A stretch of 64,000 nt of DNA from Pontibacter sp. G13 (GCF_031851795.1 NZ_CP134696.1:496001-560000), one strand, 5' to 3'. Positions 22,806-31,460 are shown, numbered from the stretch's first letter. Notes: generated from the letters alone by a model not told the origin. Numbers and translations: made by a program.

Positions 22806-22830
22806 CCAAGCGTTTTCAAATATATAATCT

Positions 22831-22862
22831 GGCTGTCCAATCTTCGGGCAGCCATTTTTTTT
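22831..22862 (+). terminator. Intrinsic terminator of lepA
   Basis: The stem GGCTGTCC/GGGCAGCC (8 bp including one G-U) has a 7-base loop and is followed by A and T8. It begins 25 nt after the lepA stop. Confidence 0.9.
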
Positions 22863-22897: not shown

Positions 22898-23111
22898 GTG
22901 CGGATGGCTTGCGGGGCGTGAGCAGCCTGAAGGTGTAGTCGGTGAGACGAGGAACGATCCACATGGTGATCATTCTGTCTGCGAGACCACAAAGTCTGGT
23001 TTTCATGGATGCTGCCGACCGAAGCGCCAGCGTAGACCGGAAGGGTGCGACCCAGCGACCATACATGCTGGCGCGTAATCCATGCCCAGATCGCTGGGGC
23101 ACGCCCAAATC
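22898..23111 (+). repeat. Dispersed element, copy A; candidate structured RNA or mobile repeat
   Basis: This 214-bp segment matches the reverse complement of 29326-29527. Three blocks are almost identical: GTGCGGATGGCTTG through GTAGTCGGTGAGA; CGACCGAAGCGCCAGCG through GGGTGCGACCC; and GCGCGTAATCCATGCCCAGA through CACGCCCAAATC. The middle is variable. Three nested stems can form: P1 22914-22920 with 23100-23106, P2 22938-22944 with 23013-23019, and P3 23051-23058 with 23091-23098. Changes between the copies preserve P2 and P3. It begins 36 nt after the lepA terminator in a tail-to-tail gap. Open frames crossing it on both strands are not conserved between copies, so I do not call it coding. 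Confidence 0.8.
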
Positions 23112-23182
23112 ATTCAAGCCCAAACAGAAAGGGTCCCATCTCCCTGCGGGAAATAGGCCCTCCACGAGTTTCGGAAATACGA

Positions 23183-23821
23183 CTATAAATTGTAGCCCAA
23201 CATGAGTTGGAATCCGAAATGGGTATTTCGCTCGTCCTCCAGGTCCGCAATATCCGTGAGGCCGATCAAGTATCTCAATTCGATAAATGCGCCAAACGGG
23301 GCCTCCCAGCCCAGTGCGAATGGCACTTCCAGATCAAAGGTTTTCAAATTGTCCAGCGATCCACGGGTTTCCACGGTATCCGAGTCGGTGATCTGCGTCA
23401 ATTGAAATTCGTTGTCCACCAAGAAAGAGGCTTGAAGACCGATCAGCCCATACAGCCCTTCATAAAAATGGTAGCGAAACAAGACCGGCACCGAAATGTA
23501 CCGTGTGGTAATATCCGAGATGTCCGTTTCGAGACCACCGGGGACGACATTGATTTCCTGCCGCCGGTCGCCGTTTTGCCAGAAAAGCACCTCTGTCTGC
23601 AAGCTGTAGGGCTCCCAGGCCAATTGCAGAGAAAGGCCTGCGACGTAGCCGAGCTTGCCCTCATTGACAGTGGAAAGGGCAAGCCCAAAATCTTCGGAAA
23701 TGCGCGTGAGGCTCATCCCGCCTTTGACGCCAAAGTGAAGTTCCTGAGCCTTGAGGAGCGGGAGCGGCCCCACCACCAGCAAGCTGGCCCAGATGAAAAA
23801 ACGCAAAAAGGTCATTCGCAT
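23183..23821 (-). CDS. Outer-membrane beta-barrel protein (PorT-like family)
   Basis: This 212-residue protein has a signal peptide (MRMTFLRFFIWASLLVVGPLPLLKA) followed by ELHFGVKGGMSLTRIS, the GxKGG start typical of Bacteroidota outer-membrane beta-barrel domains. Alternating hydrophobic strands follow, and the chain ends in a strand and aromatic-aliphatic tail (HFGFQLMLGYNL), as expected for BAM-inserted barrels. About eight strands are expected from the length. It starts 2 bp after the stop of the paralogous gene upstream, so the two are co-transcribed. No specific function can be assigned. The lepA-side dispersed element lies just beyond its 3' end. Confidence 0.85.
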   Translation of the reverse strand: MRMTFLRFFIWASLLVVGPLPLLKAQELHFGVKGGMSLTRISEDFGLALSTVNEGKLGYVAGLSLQLAWEPYSLQTEVLFWQNGDRRQEINVVPGGLETDISDITTRYISVPVLFRYHFYEGLYGLIGLQASFLVDNEFQLTQITDSDTVETRGSLDNLKTFDLEVPFALGWEAPFGAFIELRYLIGLTDIADLEDERNTHFGFQLMLGYNL

Positions 23822-23823
23822 GA

Positions 23824-24447
23824 TCAGTCAAGTCCGATTCCCAATCCAAATGAAAGCACGGAATTGTGGTTGTTCGTGGAGGCTTTGGTGACGTCGTTGA
23901 AGGAAATGGTGTAGCGGGCATCCACAAACAAACTAGGCGTCAGATAGAATGCCACACCGACCAATCCATCCACCGCCACCGGCCGAAACTCATCCCGGCG
24001 CTCGTCTAGTCTTTCAGAACTGTTGGAACCGGAAATGCTCACACGATCCCTCGCCCGCAACAATACGCCCACCTGAGGCCCGAGGAGCACGTGAATGCGC
24101 TCGACGGGAGTCCATCTGAACACCACAGGGAAATTGAGGTACTGGAGGTTCATGGAATGGGATTCTGTCGATTGCCCGGAAGTGTCCTGTCTGACGATTT
24201 CGTATCTAGCTCCCTGCTCACTATATCCGACGCCCAGCTGAGCACCAAATAGGCTATTCCAAGTGAGGGTCGAATACAGCTCGGCATTGAAGCCCGCCCT
24301 TGATTTGAAATTGTCATCGGGGAAATCTGGAATTTTCCCGGTGGAGGTGGCGATGTTCACGGCGATCCGGACACCACCGATCAGATTTTGGCTGTGCGCA
24401 GTACTGAAGGAAAGAAGCAAGATGGCCCAGAAGGTCAGCGATCGCAT
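23824..24447 (-). CDS. Outer-membrane beta-barrel protein, first gene of a two-gene unit
   Basis: This 207-residue protein has a signal peptide (MRSLTFWAILLLSFSTAHSQ) and a predicted eight-stranded barrel: GGVRIAVNIAT, a conserved GVGYSEQGARY strand, LNFPVVFRWTP, a VHVLLGPQ-like strand (HVLLGPQVGVLL) and a final VLSFGLGIGLD. This matches the outer-membrane beta-barrel (PorT-like) family. The downstream gene is a diverged paralogue separated by only 2 bp. The 256-bp region upstream is shared with the MbnP-like gene and contains a CAAAAATA at 24581-24588 (TATTTTTG on the minus strand), a perfect -7 element without a clear -33 partner. The function is unknown. Confidence 0.83.
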   Translation of the reverse strand: MRSLTFWAILLLSFSTAHSQNLIGGVRIAVNIATSTGKIPDFPDDNFKSRAGFNAELYSTLTWNSLFGAQLGVGYSEQGARYEIVRQDTSGQSTESHSMNLQYLNFPVVFRWTPVERIHVLLGPQVGVLLRARDRVSISGSNSSERLDERRDEFRPVAVDGLVGVAFYLTPSLFVDARYTISFNDVTKASTNNHNSVLSFGLGIGLD

Positions 24448-24703
24448 AGATTGTGTTTTGATTGAAGCTGTTTCGTGTATTCCGTTTCGGCTAGATGAGG
24501 AGCTAAAACAACTTCATTGAAAATAGCACAACTGGACACTCCTACACACCCAATATTCTCGATTTCCAAACACACCGAGGCAAAAATAATCTGGTACTGA
24601 AATTTTGCCCTCTGCCAAAGGGCCAGCCCTATACCAAAAATTTGTATCTTGAATATGTTTCACCAAGCATACCTTCAGCCTAATTCTTTTTAATTTTTCA
24701 AGT

Positions 24704-25477
24704 ATGAAAATCAACTTTTTACTGATTACAGCTTGTTTGGGAGGTTTTCTCCTGTTCAGCGGTTGTAACAATGAAGGTTGCACCGACCCAGATTCTCTGA
24801 CTTACAGTCCTGATGCCGAAGAGGACGATGGTTCCTGTACCTATCCCGAGGTGATGCTCCACATGCATCCTTCTGTAGGGATGGAAGATCTCGTCTTGGG
24901 CAACACCTACACCGTAAATGGCACAGCCGTCACCTTCAGCGTGGCGCAATTCTACGTTTCGCAAGTTGCGCTTGCTACTGACGGCAATGCTGATTTTTCC
25001 GATGAATACCTCTTGGTCAACGCCGGCCAGATGATGTATGGAATCGGCGAATTCCCAGCAGTTCACAAGCACATGCTGATGCTCAACATCGGGGTAGACT
25101 CCGCCACCAATCATGCGGACCCCACAACCTATGATGCTAGCCACGTCCTTGCGCCCCAATCTCCCAACATGCACTGGAGCTGGGACAATGGATACATCTT
25201 CATCAAACTGGAAGGCATGTATGACTCAGACGGGGACAATGTACCCGATGCCAACTTCGAATACCACATCGGAAAGGACAGCAATCTGAGACGCATTTCC
25301 CTCGAAGTCCATGCTGAATTGGAGAACACCACCGAAACCATCGACTTGATGGTGGACTATGCCGCGTTCCTAGACGGTATCGACTTTGCGACAGAAGCGG
25401 TCAGCCATACTGGAGATTTCCCTGAAGTGGCGGCCAAGATCGTGGCGAATGTGCCCTCCGTGATTTCTGTAGAATAA
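24704..25477 (+). CDS. MbnP-family lipoprotein
   Basis: This 257-residue protein has a lipoprotein signal (MKINFLLITACLGGFLLFSGC, Cys21) and then a CTDPDSLTYSPDAEEDDGSC motif common at the start of Bacteroidota surface lipoproteins. The rest fits MbnP: VSQVAL, HKHMLMLNIGVDS, NMHWSWDNGYIFIKLEG (conserved Trp-rich segment) and a C-terminal beta-rich half. In methanotrophs MbnP is a substrate of the di-haem enzyme MbnH, which oxidises a Trp to kynurenine and creates a copper site. The next gene is exactly such a di-haem enzyme, 112 bp away, which strongly supports the call. It probably acts in the periplasm or at the outer membrane in metal handling; there is no methanobactin gene here. Confidence 0.85.
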   Translation: MKINFLLITACLGGFLLFSGCNNEGCTDPDSLTYSPDAEEDDGSCTYPEVMLHMHPSVGMEDLVLGNTYTVNGTAVTFSVAQFYVSQVALATDGNADFSDEYLLVNAGQMMYGIGEFPAVHKHMLMLNIGVDSATNHADPTTYDASHVLAPQSPNMHWSWDNGYIFIKLEGMYDSDGDNVPDANFEYHIGKDSNLRRISLEVHAELENTTETIDLMVDYAAFLDGIDFATEAVSHTGDFPEVAAKIVANVPSVISVE

Positions 25478-25589
25478 TTGATTGAAAAAACCTTCGCCAC
25501 CGGGTCCTTGGGGATTTCGGTGGCGATTTGTATGTTATCTGCATCGATTTTTTTCGTTTGCCTCCAAGCACCCAATCTCCATCATTTCC

Positions 25590-26609
25590 ATGAAGAATCG
25601 CTGGATTTGGACATGTACATTCGTTCTAGGCACCATCTGGGGGTGTCAACAACTCATGCCTTCCCGTGCCCTCGAAGGATATTCGAGCATGACTCCACGT
25701 GATTTTCCTGAAATGCCCTTTCCGGAAGACAATGCGCCCACCCGGGCTCGCATCGAACTTGGCCGGATGCTGTTTTTCGACCCGATTCTCAGCCGTGACA
25801 CCACCATTTCTTGCGGCACTTGCCATCTCCAATCGGCTGGACTTGCGGATCATGAACGAGTGAGCGTCGGGATCGAAGGGAGAAAAGGGTTTCGCAATGT
25901 ACCCACGCTGACCAATGTCGGCTATCATCCTTATTTTTTCAAAGAGGGCGGAAGTCCAACCCTCGAAATGCAGGTGCTTGGGCCATTGGAAAATGAAGAC
26001 GAAATGGGCTTCAATGCCGCCCTGCTCAATGACCGTCTCCAAGGTCATCCCATTTACGATCCATTGGCGCAGGAAGCATACGGGCGCCCCATCGACATCT
26101 ATGTGGTCACACGTGCCATTGCCGCCTTCGAACGAACCATGATCAGCGGAAATTCCCCCTATGATCAGTTTCAGCGGGGAGATTCGAGCGCGTTGACGCC
26201 CGCACAGATTCGGGGAAAACAGCTATTCTTCAGCCCTGAGGTAGGATGTACCACCTGTCACTCTGGGTTTGACTTCACCAATTATGCCATGGAGAATATC
26301 GGTTCGCATTTTCCCTACGAAGATCTGGGAAGATACCGCATTTCTGGCGATTCGAGTGACATCGGAAAATTCAAGGTGCCTACTCTCAGAAATGTAGCCG
26401 TTACAGCTCCCTACTTCCATGATGGCGGCATTCCGCACCTGTTTGATGTGCTGGAAATCTACAACTTGGGAGGCGTGGGCCATCCGAATCAACATCCAGC
26501 CATTCATCCATTGGGATTGTCGGACGATGAATTGAGAGATCTAGAGGCATTTTTGGAAGCCCTGACCGATGAGGAGTTCCTGAACAATCCCGCGTTTTCG
26601 GCTCCATAG
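25590..26609 (+). CDS. Di-haem cytochrome c peroxidase family enzyme (MbnH-like)
   Basis: This 339-residue protein has two haem c attachment motifs, CGTCH near residue 75 and CTTCH near residue 220. The bacterial CcpA/MauG/MbnH fold is shown by LGRMLFFDPILSRD, LGPLENEDEMGF, AIAAFERTMISG and the C-terminal VPTLRNVAVTAPYFHDGG. The ATG at 25590 gives a lipoprotein-type leader ending WGC (residue 19); an upstream ATG at 25482 adds 36 residues that do not look like a signal. It follows the MbnP-like gene, so the pair probably performs post-translational oxidation of a Trp in MbnP. Plain H2O2 peroxidase activity is the alternative. It may be exported through Sec and lipidated. Confidence 0.92.
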   Translation: MKNRWIWTCTFVLGTIWGCQQLMPSRALEGYSSMTPRDFPEMPFPEDNAPTRARIELGRMLFFDPILSRDTTISCGTCHLQSAGLADHERVSVGIEGRKGFRNVPTLTNVGYHPYFFKEGGSPTLEMQVLGPLENEDEMGFNAALLNDRLQGHPIYDPLAQEAYGRPIDIYVVTRAIAAFERTMISGNSPYDQFQRGDSSALTPAQIRGKQLFFSPEVGCTTCHSGFDFTNYAMENIGSHFPYEDLGRYRISGDSSDIGKFKVPTLRNVAVTAPYFHDGGIPHLFDVLEIYNLGGVGHPNQHPAIHPLGLSDDELRDLEAFLEALTDEEFLNNPAFSAP

Positions 26610-26786
26610 CAAGGATCATCATCCCATCAGGACAATTGATTCAGGAAGACTCAACGTCCCATCCTCGCTGAGCAGACGCTCAGATTTACCATTTACGCAC
26701 CATTGTACCATTCAAGCAAAAAAATTTTATATTACGGTTATTGAAAACATCCTAGTGCTTGATTCCGAGTTCATCCGACCTGTTGC

Positions 26787-28460
26787 ATGAGTCTGCCGAA
26801 CACTCCTTCCCCCACCTTGCCTGCTCCCCTTTCCACTTCTTTGCTCACTGAATTTATAGCTGTCGAACAATCCCATCCAGACACCGTGGCCTTTCGGCAA
26901 TTTCACGGTCAAGAATGGGAACGGTGGACCTATGCAGAAGTGGGCCATCAAGCACGAGTTCTGGTGCAGGCATTTCGCCAAATGGGCCTCGAACCCAAAG
27001 CCAAAATTGGCGTGTATGGGGAATCTTCGGCCTACCATGCGATCACCCATCTCGCCTTGCAAATGGGCGGATTTGTGGCGGTACCCCTCAGCCATCAACT
27101 CTCCGGCAAGGTATTGCTGAACCGAATCCAAGTGGCGGATGTCAAGGCGATGGTCATCGGCAAAATGCCCACTCTCCAGATTTTGGAGGAAATCATGCCC
27201 AAGGGCCTTATCGGGATTGCGAGCCCACTTTGCCCGGAGTCGCATACCTACATGAAGTGGTCCGATATCCAAGCGCAGTTCCCCCCCAGTCAGGGCCTTC
27301 ATCCTAGCTCCCCGATGGACATCACGAGCATTTCCTTCGGAGATCAAGACCAGATGATCCCACATACCTTTCAGGAGATCCAAGCGCTTGGAGAGACCTT
27401 GGAGGACACCTTGGACATGTCCCAGCCTCGGGGCAGTCTGTTCGTTCATCCTGCCTACCCGACTAACTCCTTCCACCACTGGATCTGGACCCTCGGAATC
27501 GCCAAACGAATTCCCGTGTGTTTTGCCTCGCCCAGATCATGGCGAGAAGCGCTCAGGCAATATCCGGCATACAACCTCATCGCACATTCGGATGACTGGC
27601 GTCAACTATTCCAGAAACTCTCCGACATACACGCCTACTGGAAGTGGATGGTTCTGCTGTCTATTCCCATCTTTGATCTCGTCCTGAAGCACCGGACGCG
27701 GAAGATCCTTGGGCTACACAAGCTGCAAGTGGCTGTTTCGGAAGGCCAGCCCCTCTCTCCGCAAGCCCTGGCTCTGTTCCGGAAATTGGGCATTCACGTG
27801 CTCGAAATGTATGGCCATCCCGAGGCCCTGGGTGCACTCACCATCAATCGCCCTGCCCTCATACAAGCAGGAACCAAGGGACAACCATTCCCCAAATGCG
27901 AGCTCAAAGTCCACCGAGAGTCCGGGGAGATCATCGCCAAGGCCCCTTGGTTGGCCAAGCGAAAGCTCGATCCAGAGGCCCCCTCCCGGATTCAGGAAGG
28001 ATGGCTGCACACGGGCAAACGTGGAAGCTGGGCCGAAACCGGGCAATTGATCGTGGAGGGAGATTTGGACAAGCCCTATCCGGCCAAGGGAACTGGAGAA
28101 ATGTGCATTCAGCAGATCGAAGGCAAATTCACCGATATCCACGGGATCAAGCGGGCCGTGATTCTCGAAAAACCCAATGGCAAAAAGTGGGCTTACCTCA
28201 ACATGGAACGCCCATTGTCCGATTTGCTGCCCGACAAACTCAGGAACCAATCCGCCCGGATCTTGAAAAAGGTGAACCAAACCCTTCTTCCTGAGCTGCG
28301 AATTGACCATCTTGTCGTAATGGAAGCTGACTGGACGGCCCATCAAGGCGGACTCTTACCGAGTCTCGAAGCCGACCGCGATTGGATAGCCGACAAGGCC
28401 AGCAAGCTCAAATGGTCCCATCCAAAGCTTCCCGCAGTACTCCTGGAATCGGAAGACTGA
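26787..28460 (+). CDS. Degenerate acyl-CoA synthetase (ANL superfamily) homologue, probable pseudoenzyme
   Basis: This 557-residue intact protein follows the AMP-forming long-chain acyl-CoA synthetase fold: FRQFHGQEWERWTYAEVGHQA at the start, KIGVYGESSAYH, and VLEMYGHPEALG where the family has YGxTE. The Gly/Thr-rich ATP loop (usually YTSGTTGxPKG) is replaced by ISFGDQDQMIPH, the TGD of the DGWxxTGD motif reads TGK (EGWLHTGKRG), and the GRxKD hinge appears as EGDLDKP. These are essential in the family, so ATP-dependent activation is unlikely. The frame is uninterrupted over 1.67 kb, which argues against a decaying pseudogene. A 27-bp gap separates it from the SDR downstream. A binding or regulatory role in lipid metabolism is inference. 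The start is the ATG at 26787. Confidence 0.8.
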   Translation: MSLPNTPSPTLPAPLSTSLLTEFIAVEQSHPDTVAFRQFHGQEWERWTYAEVGHQARVLVQAFRQMGLEPKAKIGVYGESSAYHAITHLALQMGGFVAVPLSHQLSGKVLLNRIQVADVKAMVIGKMPTLQILEEIMPKGLIGIASPLCPESHTYMKWSDIQAQFPPSQGLHPSSPMDITSISFGDQDQMIPHTFQEIQALGETLEDTLDMSQPRGSLFVHPAYPTNSFHHWIWTLGIAKRIPVCFASPRSWREALRQYPAYNLIAHSDDWRQLFQKLSDIHAYWKWMVLLSIPIFDLVLKHRTRKILGLHKLQVAVSEGQPLSPQALALFRKLGIHVLEMYGHPEALGALTINRPALIQAGTKGQPFPKCELKVHRESGEIIAKAPWLAKRKLDPEAPSRIQEGWLHTGKRGSWAETGQLIVEGDLDKPYPAKGTGEMCIQQIEGKFTDIHGIKRAVILEKPNGKKWAYLNMERPLSDLLPDKLRNQSARILKKVNQTLLPELRIDHLVVMEADWTAHQGGLLPSLEADRDWIADKASKLKWSHPKLPAVLLESED

Positions 28461-28487
28461 CCTTTTTCTTCTAAGGACTATTACTCA

Positions 28488-29237
28488 ATGATGAAACTTA
28501 CGGACAAGGTGGCCATCGTGACCGGTGCCAGCAAGGGAATCGGCAAAGCCATCGCCCATGCCTTTGGGTTGGCAGGCGCCAAGGTCGTCGTCAGCAGCAG
28601 AAAGCAGGACGCGGTCGATGAGGTAGCGCAGGAATTCGCAGATGCAGGGATCGAGGCGCGGGCGATCGCCTGCAATGTGGGCGATCCTGAGGCCCGAAAA
28701 GCCCTCATCGATCAGACGGCTGAAGCATTTGGCAGCATCGACATCCTCGTCAACAATGCCGGCACCAATCCCTATTTCGGACCCGTCATGGGTATGGAGG
28801 ACTGGGCGTATGACAAGATCATGGAGATCAATCTCCGAGCCCCATACGAATTGGCGCGACTCGCCTACCCCCACATGAAAGCCGCTGGTGGCTCCATCAT
28901 CAACATTTCCAGTGTGGAGGGACAGACTCCTAGCCCCGGATTGGGCATCTACAGTGTCAGCAAATCCGCCCTGATCATGATGACCAAGGTGCTCGCTCAA
29001 GAGTGGGGCAAGAAGAAGATCCGCGTCAACACCATCGCACCCGGATTCGTCAAGACCAAATTGAGCCAAGCTATCTTCGACAACCCCCAAATGCTGGAAT
29101 ACGTCATGGCCAAACAGGCACTTGACCACCAAGCCGAACCGGAAGATATCGCAGGGGTGGCACTCATGCTGGCCAGTGACGATTCCCAGTTTGTCACCGG
29201 AGCTACCTTCACTGCGGATGGAGGCTTGACCATTTAG
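28488..29237 (+). CDS. Short-chain dehydrogenase/reductase (3-oxoacyl-ACP reductase-like)
   Basis: This 249-residue classical SDR has TGASKGIG (NAD(P) binding, residues 12-19), NNAG near residue 89, the catalytic Ser/Tyr/Lys set (NISSVEG then YSVSK) and the C-terminal GVALMLASDDSQFVTGATFTADGG typical of FabG-like enzymes. It is cytoplasmic and probably tetrameric. The substrate is not determined by sequence; the co-directional acyl-CoA-synthetase homologue 27 bp upstream and fadD on the other side point to fatty-acid or hydroxyacyl metabolism. Two adjacent ATGs (28488 and 28491) make the exact start ambiguous by one residue. Confidence 0.93.
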   Translation: MMKLTDKVAIVTGASKGIGKAIAHAFGLAGAKVVVSSRKQDAVDEVAQEFADAGIEARAIACNVGDPEARKALIDQTAEAFGSIDILVNNAGTNPYFGPVMGMEDWAYDKIMEINLRAPYELARLAYPHMKAAGGSIINISSVEGQTPSPGLGIYSVSKSALIMMTKVLAQEWGKKKIRVNTIAPGFVKTKLSQAIFDNPQMLEYVMAKQALDHQAEPEDIAGVALMLASDDSQFVTGATFTADGGLTI

Positions 29238-29325
29238 CCCGAACATGCAACTTGATCTCCAAAGCCCTGCACGCCCATTGGTATGCAGGGCTTGAGCTTT
29301 TGGGATATCTGGGAAGATTTGGGCG

Positions 29326-29527
29326 TGCCCCCGCGGTCTGGGCATGGATTACGCGCTGGATGTATCGTCGCGGGGTCGCACCCTTCCGGTCTACGCTGGC
29401 GCTTCGGTCGGTGGCACCGATGTCAACCAGCCTGATGGACCTACGGGCAAGATGATGGCCCAGTGGATCTTTCCACCTCTCACCGACTACACCTTCAGGC
29501 TGCTCACGCCCCACAAGCCATCCGCAC
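29326..29527 (-). repeat. Dispersed element, copy B; candidate structured RNA or mobile repeat
   Basis: This 202-bp segment read on the minus strand aligns with 22898-23111. It starts 25 nt past the fadD terminator and 84 nt past the fadD stop; copy A starts 36 nt past the lepA terminator and 93 nt past the lepA stop. It therefore has the same orientation relative to its upstream gene and also lies in a tail-to-tail gap. Its P3 stem is CCCCGCG/CGCGGGG where copy A has CCCAGCG/CGCTGGG, and P2 is GTCGGTG/CACCGAC where copy A has two G-U pairs. The remainder of the 29238-29610 gap holds the fadD terminator and nothing else that I recognise. Confidence 0.8.
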
Positions 29528-29551
29528 GCTTCAATTTATTCCCCTAAAGGA

Positions 29552-29579
29552 AAAGGCCCCCCAAAACCGGGCGGCCTTT
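29552..29579 (-). terminator. Intrinsic terminator of fadD
   Basis: The stem AAAGGCC/GGCCTTT, with a further CCC/GGG pairing inside, is followed by TTCC on the minus strand; the U-tract is short. It lies 32 nt after the fadD stop. On the plus strand it is followed by a later T6 run, so it may also stop transcripts from the SDR gene. Confidence 0.55.
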
Positions 29580-29610: not shown

Positions 29611-31275
29611 CTAAGCTTCCTTCAACTTCCGGCGGAGGATTTTGCCTACTGCAGTCTTTGGCATCTCATCGCGGAATTCTACATGCCTAGGCACCTTGTA
29701 ACCCGTCAGGTTCTCGCGACAGAAAGCGATCAACTCTTCCTTGGTGAGGCTATCTTCCTTCTTGACAACCACAAGTTTCACCGCCTCATTGGACTTGGGA
29801 TCTGGCACGCCGATAGCTGCACATTCGAGCACACCCGGGTGTCCCGCTACTACATCCTCGATTTCGTTGGGGTAGACATTGAATCCAGACACGAGAATCA
29901 TGTCCTTTTTCCGGTCTACAATCCGGAAGAATCCATCCTCGTCCATGATCCCGATGTCTCCCGTACGGAACCATGCGCCGTGATGGAAACTAGCTTCATT
30001 TTCGTCAGGACGCTCCCAGTACCCGGTCATCACCTGAGGACCTTTGGCGCAGATCTCTCCGCGTTCACCCAGAGGCACTTCATTGCCATCGTCATCCATG
30101 ATCTTGAGATCTGTGTCAGGCATCGGCAATCCGATGGTCCCGATTCGGTCGGTTCCATTGGTCGGGTTGAACGTCAATACCGGAGAGGTCTCACTCAGGC
30201 CATATCCTTCCAAGATCGGCTTTCCAGTGATGGACTTCCACTTGTCATTGACAGGCTTCTGAACAGCCATTCCACCACCGATGGAGAGCTTCATGTGAGA
30301 GAAGTCCAGATCGGCAAATCCGGGAGCATTCAGCAGGGCATTGAACAAGGTATTCACCCCAGTGATGAAGGTGAACGGATGCTTGGACAATTCCTTGATG
30401 AATCCGGGGATGTCTCGTGGGTTGGTGATCAGAATGTTTTTCGCGCCGAACTTGGTCATCAACAAGCAGTTGATGGTACAGGCAAAAATATGGTACATGG
30501 GCAATGCCGTGATCGCCACTTCTTTTCCTTCGATCAAATCGCGGCCATTCCACTCGCTAGTCTGAAGCAGATTGGAGAGCAAATTACCGTGAGTCAGCGT
30601 AGCCCCTTTGGATCGGCCGGTGGTTCCTCCCGTGTATTGCAGGAATGCGATGGTATCTGCGTCCTGATGAACGGGCTTGAGCGTCTCTTTAGCTCCTTTG
30701 GCGAGGGCGGTCTTGATAGAGACTGCTTGTGGAAGGTGGTATTTGGGGACCATCTTCTTCACGTATTTGACCATGAAGTTGACGATGGAACCTTTTAGCC
30801 CTCCCATCAAATCACCGATCTCGGTGACGATCACATGTTTGACATGCGTCTCGGGAAGCACTTCCTCCAATTTATCCGCAAAGTTGGCGAGAATCACCAC
30901 CGCCTTTGCTCCGGAATCCTCGAATTGGTGGGCCATCTCACGGGCCGTGTACAAGGGATTGGTATTCACCACGACCAGACCAGCACGGATGATCCCGAAC
31001 ATCACGACGGGATATTGAAGGACATTGGGCATTTGGACTGCCACACGATCACCTGCTTGAAGGCCCAAGCTCTGGAGGTAAGCGGCAAATTGCGTGGAAA
31101 GGGTGTCGATCTCCCGATAAGTGAGGGATTTGCCCATGTTTTCATAGGCGGGAAGATCGGCGTATTTCTGGAGACTTTGGCCGATGAAATCTGTTAGCGA
31201 TGCGTAGGTGTCCAATGGGATTGTAGGTCGCACTCCTTGCGGGTAGGCGTCGTGCCAAGCTCGATGTTCCGTCAT
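29611..31275 (-). CDS. fadD: Long-chain fatty acid--CoA ligase (FadD)
   Basis: This 554-residue AMP-forming ligase activates fatty acids to acyl-CoA for beta-oxidation or lipid synthesis at the inner face of the cytoplasmic membrane. All motifs are intact: YTGGTTGRSKGATLTHGNL (ATP loop), GYGLSETSP, WFRTGDIG, the hinge DRKKDMILVSGFNVYPNEIE, and the C-terminal catalytic lysine in PKTAVGKILRRKL. This contrasts with the degenerate homologue 2 kb away. The ATG at 31275 (MTEHRAWHDAYPQGV) matches the E. coli FadD N-terminus; a longer frame starts with TTG at 31347. Upstream, TAATTTCG at 31364-31371 could be a -7 element, but its -33 spacing is poor. Confidence 0.95.
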   Translation of the reverse strand: MTEHRAWHDAYPQGVRPTIPLDTYASLTDFIGQSLQKYADLPAYENMGKSLTYREIDTLSTQFAAYLQSLGLQAGDRVAVQMPNVLQYPVVMFGIIRAGLVVVNTNPLYTAREMAHQFEDSGAKAVVILANFADKLEEVLPETHVKHVIVTEIGDLMGGLKGSIVNFMVKYVKKMVPKYHLPQAVSIKTALAKGAKETLKPVHQDADTIAFLQYTGGTTGRSKGATLTHGNLLSNLLQTSEWNGRDLIEGKEVAITALPMYHIFACTINCLLMTKFGAKNILITNPRDIPGFIKELSKHPFTFITGVNTLFNALLNAPGFADLDFSHMKLSIGGGMAVQKPVNDKWKSITGKPILEGYGLSETSPVLTFNPTNGTDRIGTIGLPMPDTDLKIMDDDGNEVPLGERGEICAKGPQVMTGYWERPDENEASFHHGAWFRTGDIGIMDEDGFFRIVDRKKDMILVSGFNVYPNEIEDVVAGHPGVLECAAIGVPDPKSNEAVKLVVVKKEDSLTKEELIAFCRENLTGYKVPRHVEFRDEMPKTAVGKILRRKLKEA

Positions 31276-31460
31276 AGCGTCGTAGTCTGTTACGTTAAAT
31301 ATGCTTGCATTAGGAATGCTGACCTGATAGCGGGTAGCAAGGGTCAATTAGGTATTCCAGAATCGAAATTATGCCAAACAAAGAAGCAATTTAGCAAATA
31401 CGCAATGAGATGTAAACCCCATCCTCAAATTTCTAGGCCATTTGGCCCAGTCCGAGGAAA

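Follow-up and report, generated by a model that had tools for sequence, protein, structure and literature searches.

Three-way-junction repeats of Pontibacter sp. G13, related to Flavo-1, carry stem changes that look like selection on folded DNA

We describe a multicopy intergenic element of Pontibacter sp. G13 which, in our judgement, has about an even chance of being a non-autonomous 170–250-bp repeat of a Flavo-1 superfamily, a large REP/BIME-like unit that folds as single-stranded DNA. The element was studied from two copies in a stretch of 64,000 nt (GCF_031851795.1 NZ_CP134696.1:496001-560000), referred to here as the window. A wider reading, which we hold more tentatively and as possible rather than probable, is that the element belongs to a phylum-wide class in the Bacteroidota of which the Rfam 'Flavo-1 RNA' would be a fragment; this class would be selected as folded DNA, its three-way-junction strand being recognised by a putative DNA-processing enzyme or architectural protein, and would have been copied into inverted doublets at the edges of repeat islands that contain no genes and lie between convergent genes. 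What is new is the almost exclusively Watson-Crick nature of the stem changes, the head-to-head arrangement of near copies and the rule that a second repeat family is found 5′ of the element in every case that could be resolved.

The two window copies, at 22898–23111 (plus strand) and 29316–29527 (minus strand), are 85% identical over ~212 nt (E 5e-61), far above chance, which confirms the homology proposed in the initial annotation; the ends given there for copy 1 were correct, while copy 2 had been drawn 10 nt short at its 3′ side. A covariance model run on the window matched these two copies only, at 188 bits each. Coding content was considered and rejected, no conserved reading frame being found between them; the earlier description of a non-coding multicopy element is supported. 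Copy 1 begins 92 nt past the stop codon of a lepA-like gene, whose intrinsic terminator (22830–22862, plus strand) precedes the element, and copy 2 begins 83 nt past the stop of a fadD-like gene, with its terminator at 29551–29579 (minus strand); the distances to stops and terminators in the initial annotation were right, as was the tail-to-tail placement. That annotation had missed the far side, where the stop codon of the opposite convergent gene lies 68 nt (copy 1) or 75 nt (copy 2) past the 3′ end of the element, with a terminator-like hairpin in between: the intrinsic terminator of an SDR gene for copy 2 (29263–29292, plus strand) and, for copy 1, a hairpin with a weak T run (23129–23160, minus strand) that may terminate the minus-strand gene at 23183–23815. 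Given the second convergent gene and this hairpin, both copies lie between two opposed terminators. Their shared orientation relative to the lepA-like and fadD-like genes had also been stated correctly, but it is uninformative, because an element placed tail-to-tail between two genes is always sense to one of them, whichever way it points.

In order to estimate copy number, the genome (7.67 Mb) was searched with two covariance models. R1, built from 29 copies, gave at least 150 candidates, all of those listed scoring at least 94 bits; R2, built on another subfamily, 'Y', gave at least 150 further matches at 111 bits or more, two of them on contigs C2 and C3. Together with matches in fetched loci, these define at least 318 distinct places on contig C1, which bears out the expectation of many copies. 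Relatives were found in other genomes: one genome from the same family has 30 copies, and other families have fewer; these copies measure 120–180 nt, compared with 170–250 nt in Pontibacter sp. G13, and most lack the GTGCG end. Searches of plasmids, phages and IMG/VR viral contigs gave no match. In the search for empty sites, the lepA loci of relatives from other genera showed no element and a different sequence behind the gene. A scan with the fadD-like gene (29611–31347) returned mostly gamma-proteobacterial sequences (Shewanella, Pantoea, Photobacterium) as best relatives in the scanned genomes, at ~60% identity, and this gene was possibly acquired by transfer.

One strand of the element folds into a three-way junction, formed by a closing helix P1, a long arm P2-P3-P4 and a hairpin P5. 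The same core fold was obtained by reading the sequences by eye, by unaided RNAalifold and from pair counts compared with shuffled and slid controls. In copy 1, which is of type X and lies wholly on the plus strand, the conserved 5′ tail GTGCGGATGGCNNGNGG (22898–22914), with the 5′ boundary at GTGCGG, stands outside the junction. P1 pairs GGCGTG (22915–22920) with CACGCC (23100–23105) and P2 pairs GCA.CC (22922–22927) with GG.TGC (23043–23048); a 4×4 purine-rich internal loop, TGAA/GGAA, separates P2 from P3, in which GGT (22932–22934) pairs with ACC (23036–23038). P4 is formed by GTCGGT (22938–22943) and GCCGAC (23014–23019), P5 by CCCAGCG (23051–23057) and CGCTGGG (23092–23098), and the conserved 3′ end CAAATC (23106–23111) marks the vicinity of the 3′ boundary. 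Conserved unpaired motifs are present in the junction. The apical loop of P4 (22944–23013 in copy 1) is a copy-specific 70 nt without internal structure; loops of ~70 nt are found in type A copies, and in another subtype the loop is replaced by a hairpin. Reading the ~70-nt loops as guide RNAs was considered, as they are copy-specific and unstructured (mean z −0.06), and was rejected, as matches outside elements were almost nil in 0.89 Mb sampled; the few that occurred were degenerate copies in one array and some short matches.

The core fold is common to 25 relatives, including some from other families, and is maintained in spite of considerable divergence. Covariation is very strong: in the MAFFT alignment A2, made without fitting to the structure, both partners had changed in 17 of 29 pairs, with a covariation score of 0.361 against 0.100 for shuffled and at most 0.070 for slid controls. 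All 20 core pairs are Watson-Crick in 140 of 183 copies, and 36 more have a single deviation, although at unpaired columns even nearest neighbours are only ~67% identical. P1, for example, changes jointly from GGCGTG/CACGCC to GGGGTG/CACCCC and to GGGGTA/TACCCC.

The nature of these changes bears on which molecule folds. The core helices of the 183 aligned copies contain 3607 Watson-Crick and 18 G-T cells (18/3625, 0.5%), whereas tRNAs of the same genome have G-U in 17 of 264 pairs (6.4%; Fisher p 1e-11, for a small control of 12 tRNAs and for element copies that are not independent and come from windows picked around the best matches). At some pairs G-C and A-T replace each other in a quarter of the copies, one of these pairs being G-C in 125, A-T in 52 and G-T in none, and even in comparisons of closest relatives double changes from one Watson-Crick pair to another are ~20 times as common as G-T differences of a single step. 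The covariance-model alignments are structure-fitted, and the unfitted alignment A2 gives the same pattern. Flavo-1 of Flavobacterium behaves similarly, with 3 G-U among ~370 pairs and C-G/T-A interchange at three variable pairs without a G-U intermediate. It is mainly on account of the Watson-Crick-only changes and the near absence of G-T that we propose DNA as the folded molecule: to judge from the sequences, the stem changes look like selection on folded DNA and not on RNA, which casts doubt on the cataloguing of the related Flavo-1 as an sRNA. If it is indeed DNA whose fold is read, an 'sRNA' family that has been catalogued and is widely annotated would be misfiled, and the scarcity of G-U, close to complete, would provide a cheap test to tell DNA-structured repeats from RNA genes.

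The alternative that survives best is that the element is a structured small RNA family, whose copies are transcribed and whose RNA fold is seen by selection, which we regard as doubtful but deserving of serious weight. A complex junction with conserved unpaired bases speaks for it, such motifs being just as typical of RNA, individual copies have very few broken stems, and the related motif is filed as sRNA in Rfam. Moreover, the residual mismatches on the folding strand favour G-T over A-C (18:5, p 0.01), an asymmetry from which we conclude that one specific strand folds, and which RNA would explain as well. Set against this are the scarcity of G-U both in the element and in Flavobacterium Flavo-1, the hundreds of copies and the absence of any orientation preference relative to neighbouring genes. 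The transcriptome of F. psychrophilum shows no consistent Flavo-1 transcript, although these data are equivocal (PMC9723704).

Flavo-1 RNA itself is Rfam family RF01705 (Weinberg et al. 2010, PMC2864571); the literature we found gives no function for it and describes copies that lie on either strand of transcripts. It shares with our element the occurrence in Bacteroidota, the multicopy character, a long arm with GATTGNAGCGGAAATCC...AAAGATTGNAGCG and covariation almost without G-U. The two differ in that RF01705 models the long arm only (76 nt), whereas the element is a three-way junction of 170–250 nt with P1 and P5, a 5′ tail GTGCGGMTGG and an arrangement in doublets. RF01705 had no match in the Pontibacter sp. 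G13 genome at the gathering score, and an Rfam scan of 15 loci gave no Flavo-1 match up to an E value of 5. The link between the two depends mainly on a single copy from a relative (L036), although relatives share the fold; this copy scores 49.5 bits with RF01705 (gathering score 42) and 26.5 bits with R1. Because it passes the Flavo-1 threshold and carries P1 and P5 of the element, we interpret the family as an extended and hitherto unrecognised variant of a putative Flavo-1 superfamily, which is not a member by the Rfam criterion.

Near-identical copies in unrelated flanks show that the element has been mobile in the past, with sharp ends GTGCGG...CGCCCAAAT. One such pair, at L143 and L144, shares 97% identity over 192 nt between unrelated flanks; in a second, at L074 and L149, identity is 89% over 168 nt and is lost at the same ends. 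Conservation drops sharply at GTGCGG and near CGCCCAAAT, outside of which only weak A/T- and C-rich preferences are seen. Terminal inverted repeats or target duplications were not recognised in aligned recent copies and boundary profiles. The element resembles MITEs such as ERIC, RUP and NEMIS in being small, non-coding, intergenic and present in many copies, but differs from them in the selection on a three-helix junction. An autonomous version carrying an ORF was considered and rejected, given that the 3′ half lies within 145 nt for 189 of 193 5′ halves; the exceptions fall in one RHS-like gene array.

According to the model that we favour, in which the element is a non-autonomous repeat, the form that matters would be folded DNA, either a single strand or a cruciform, and a putative trans-acting enzyme would recognise the fold and copy the element to new sites. 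Insertions would survive mainly where they hit no gene, promoter or terminator, and would consequently pile up between opposed terminators, with partner copies and other repeats gathering at the 5′ end. Insertion of single strands as in IS200/IS605 would give a replication-strand bias. We count against the model that no such bias is seen (168 leading and 150 lagging among the 318 places on C1) and that no enzyme was found, the RAYT gene of the genome, described below, not being near copies. With several hundred copies per genome, the family would, if the fold is read as DNA, offer a natural system for finding an enzyme or architectural protein that recognises DNA structure in the Bacteroidota, and for asking what makes paired elements and repeat arrays gather in convergent gaps.

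Placement was analysed with gene calls from a simple codon score. Both neighbours were called for 185 copies, of which 99 lie in tail-to-tail gaps, 45 between codirectional genes in antisense, 35 between codirectional genes in sense and 6 in head-to-head gaps; the 519 reference pairs of neighbouring genes comprise 134 convergent, 319 codirectional and 66 divergent pairs. Considering codirectional gaps, sense and antisense did not differ (26 versus 36, p 0.25), and the small number in opposed-promoter gaps, six copies, is what survival of harmless insertions alone would predict. No more than avoidance of promoters and genes is needed to account for this placement.

The enrichment in convergent gaps could instead mean that these are BIME-like 3′-flank elements maintained because they are useful in place, the proposed roles being insulation of transcription, stabilisation of mRNA ends or binding of a nucleoid or topology protein. 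Head-to-head pairs do sit between convergent genes, and stems are intact in nearly all copies despite their wide divergence. Truncated copies are almost absent outside one array, which is unusual for a decaying mobile repeat and suggests that copies are either useful in place or lost whole. We nevertheless find maintenance for such a role unlikely, since 80 of the 185 copies lie between codirectional genes in either orientation, most sampled codirectional gaps contain no copy, and often each of the two neighbours is already provided with its own intrinsic terminator.

Copies less than 500 bp apart are arranged head-to-head in 28 of 31 cases and tail-to-tail in 3, with no tandem arrangement (p 3e-14). 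Doublet spacers cluster near 11–19, 43–49 and 78–96 nt and are wholly different between homologous doublets; the head-to-head doublets at L089 and L133, for instance, have arms that are 90% identical and 19-nt spacers of completely different sequence. An origin of doublets by local inverted duplication was rejected, as the partners are often of different subfamilies. We also discarded the idea that copies are transposon ends around cargo genes, as the head-to-head bias fades beyond 500 bp and nothing unusual marks the genes that distant pairs enclose.

The element shares with REP/BIME/REPIN sequences an intergenic location, a copy number in the hundreds, inverted doublets and variable spacers (PMC3116915, PMC6006769), and the compensatory changes fit folding of single-stranded DNA in both; the differences are units of 170–250 nt with a three-way junction instead of hairpins of 20–40 nt, no GTAG foot and no adjacent RAYT. 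The genome encodes one RAYT (L052:7077-7622, minus strand), a protein of 181 aa with NHIH, WQ and YIHQNP motifs that matches NCBIfam REP_Tyr_transpos and belongs to TnpA_REP subclass 2.6. In Bacteroidetes, RAYTs of this subclass are reported to have 'atypical secondary structures' at their flanks, of which further copies occur elsewhere, and their repeats lack the GT[AG]G foot (PMC6006769), so that the absence of this foot from the ends of our element is not decisive. That the element is a REPIN mobilised by this RAYT would agree with these reports and with the doublets (PMC3116915), but appears very improbable: what flanks the RAYT gene is another repeat of ~45 nt, CGCGGACTACGCGGCAGGCCGGCGCACGGTCCGGAAGTCCGCG, in several copies, the nearest element copies are 3.3 and 5.3 kb away, and neither R1 nor R2 matched at any of 20 RAYT loci taken from Pontibacter sp. 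G13 and further Bacteroidota. Flavo-1 occurs at one of these 20 loci, more than 1 kb from the gene. Many RAYT relatives in other genomes are flanked by short repeats of their own, those of related Flavobacterium RAYTs being of the GGCACGGATTGCAAATCCGCGC type, and such flanking repeats may be the 'atypical' repeats of subclass 2.6. The Rfam model of the IscB omega RNA (HEARO) had no match in the loci scanned, and PF14239, for an RRXRR/IscB protein, had none in the genome, in a search whose control also matched nowhere.

The initial annotation had proposed that the element chooses terminators as landing sites in the manner of group IIC introns. Its concentration in tail-to-tail gaps and frequent position just beyond terminators stand, but terminator targeting fails as a mechanism. 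Tabulation of 61 single tail-to-tail copies detected a hairpin upstream in 25 and downstream in 23, at 8–56 nt from the 5′ end (median ~27) and 9–84 nt from the 3′ end (median ~28), one outlier apart in each case, so the distances are alike at both ends while orientation is random. The sole reverse transcriptase detected in the genome (L158:6232-7623, minus strand) best matches the defence class UG17. A retro-mobile RNA, group IIC-like or another ribozyme, that lands behind terminators is hardly credible: the position 20–40 nt past terminators of many copies and the resemblance of the 5′ end GTGCG to the group II intron 5′ consensus speak for it, but there is no orientation rule, no match to Rfam group II models was obtained in the loci scanned, no group II domains or group II reverse transcriptase were found, the element is far too short, and most relatives, at 120–180 nt, lack the GTGCG end.

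A second repeat family forms arrays with periods of 228–417 bp. Of 35 matches to it, 30 are located 5′ of the neighbouring element and the other five between two copies; two further matches have no element in the same gap. This 5′-side rule was unexpected.

Intergenic islands that contain no genes, the largest exceeding 2 kb, consist of tandem units (periods 228–417 bp) of smaller palindromic repeats, for example TCCCGCATAAATTT...AAATTTTGCGGGA, and were seen in this genome at L048, L049, L059, L074, L077, L098, L105, L136, L144 and L156. For the repeat family that was searched, all island arrays that could be resolved lie 5′ of a Flavo-1-like element. Acido-Lenti-1 RNA was described from Acidobacteria and Lentisphaerae. 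Matches to it (RF01687) at L144:3504-3549, L143:2436-2481 and L290:6-241 are intergenic repeats in this Bacteroidota genome, beside elements and the RAYT gene; it is thus a multicopy 'RNA' motif in the same islands, although a separate one of 46 nt that lies outside the element. Finally, L051:3000-17300 and L052:1700-5600 hold an array of C-terminal gene fragments of the RHS type, in which an element copy immediately precedes the start of several fragments, and this array is nearly the sole site of degenerate or split copies, some of them with a palindrome, CCCCGGATCAAGTCCGGGG, inserted.
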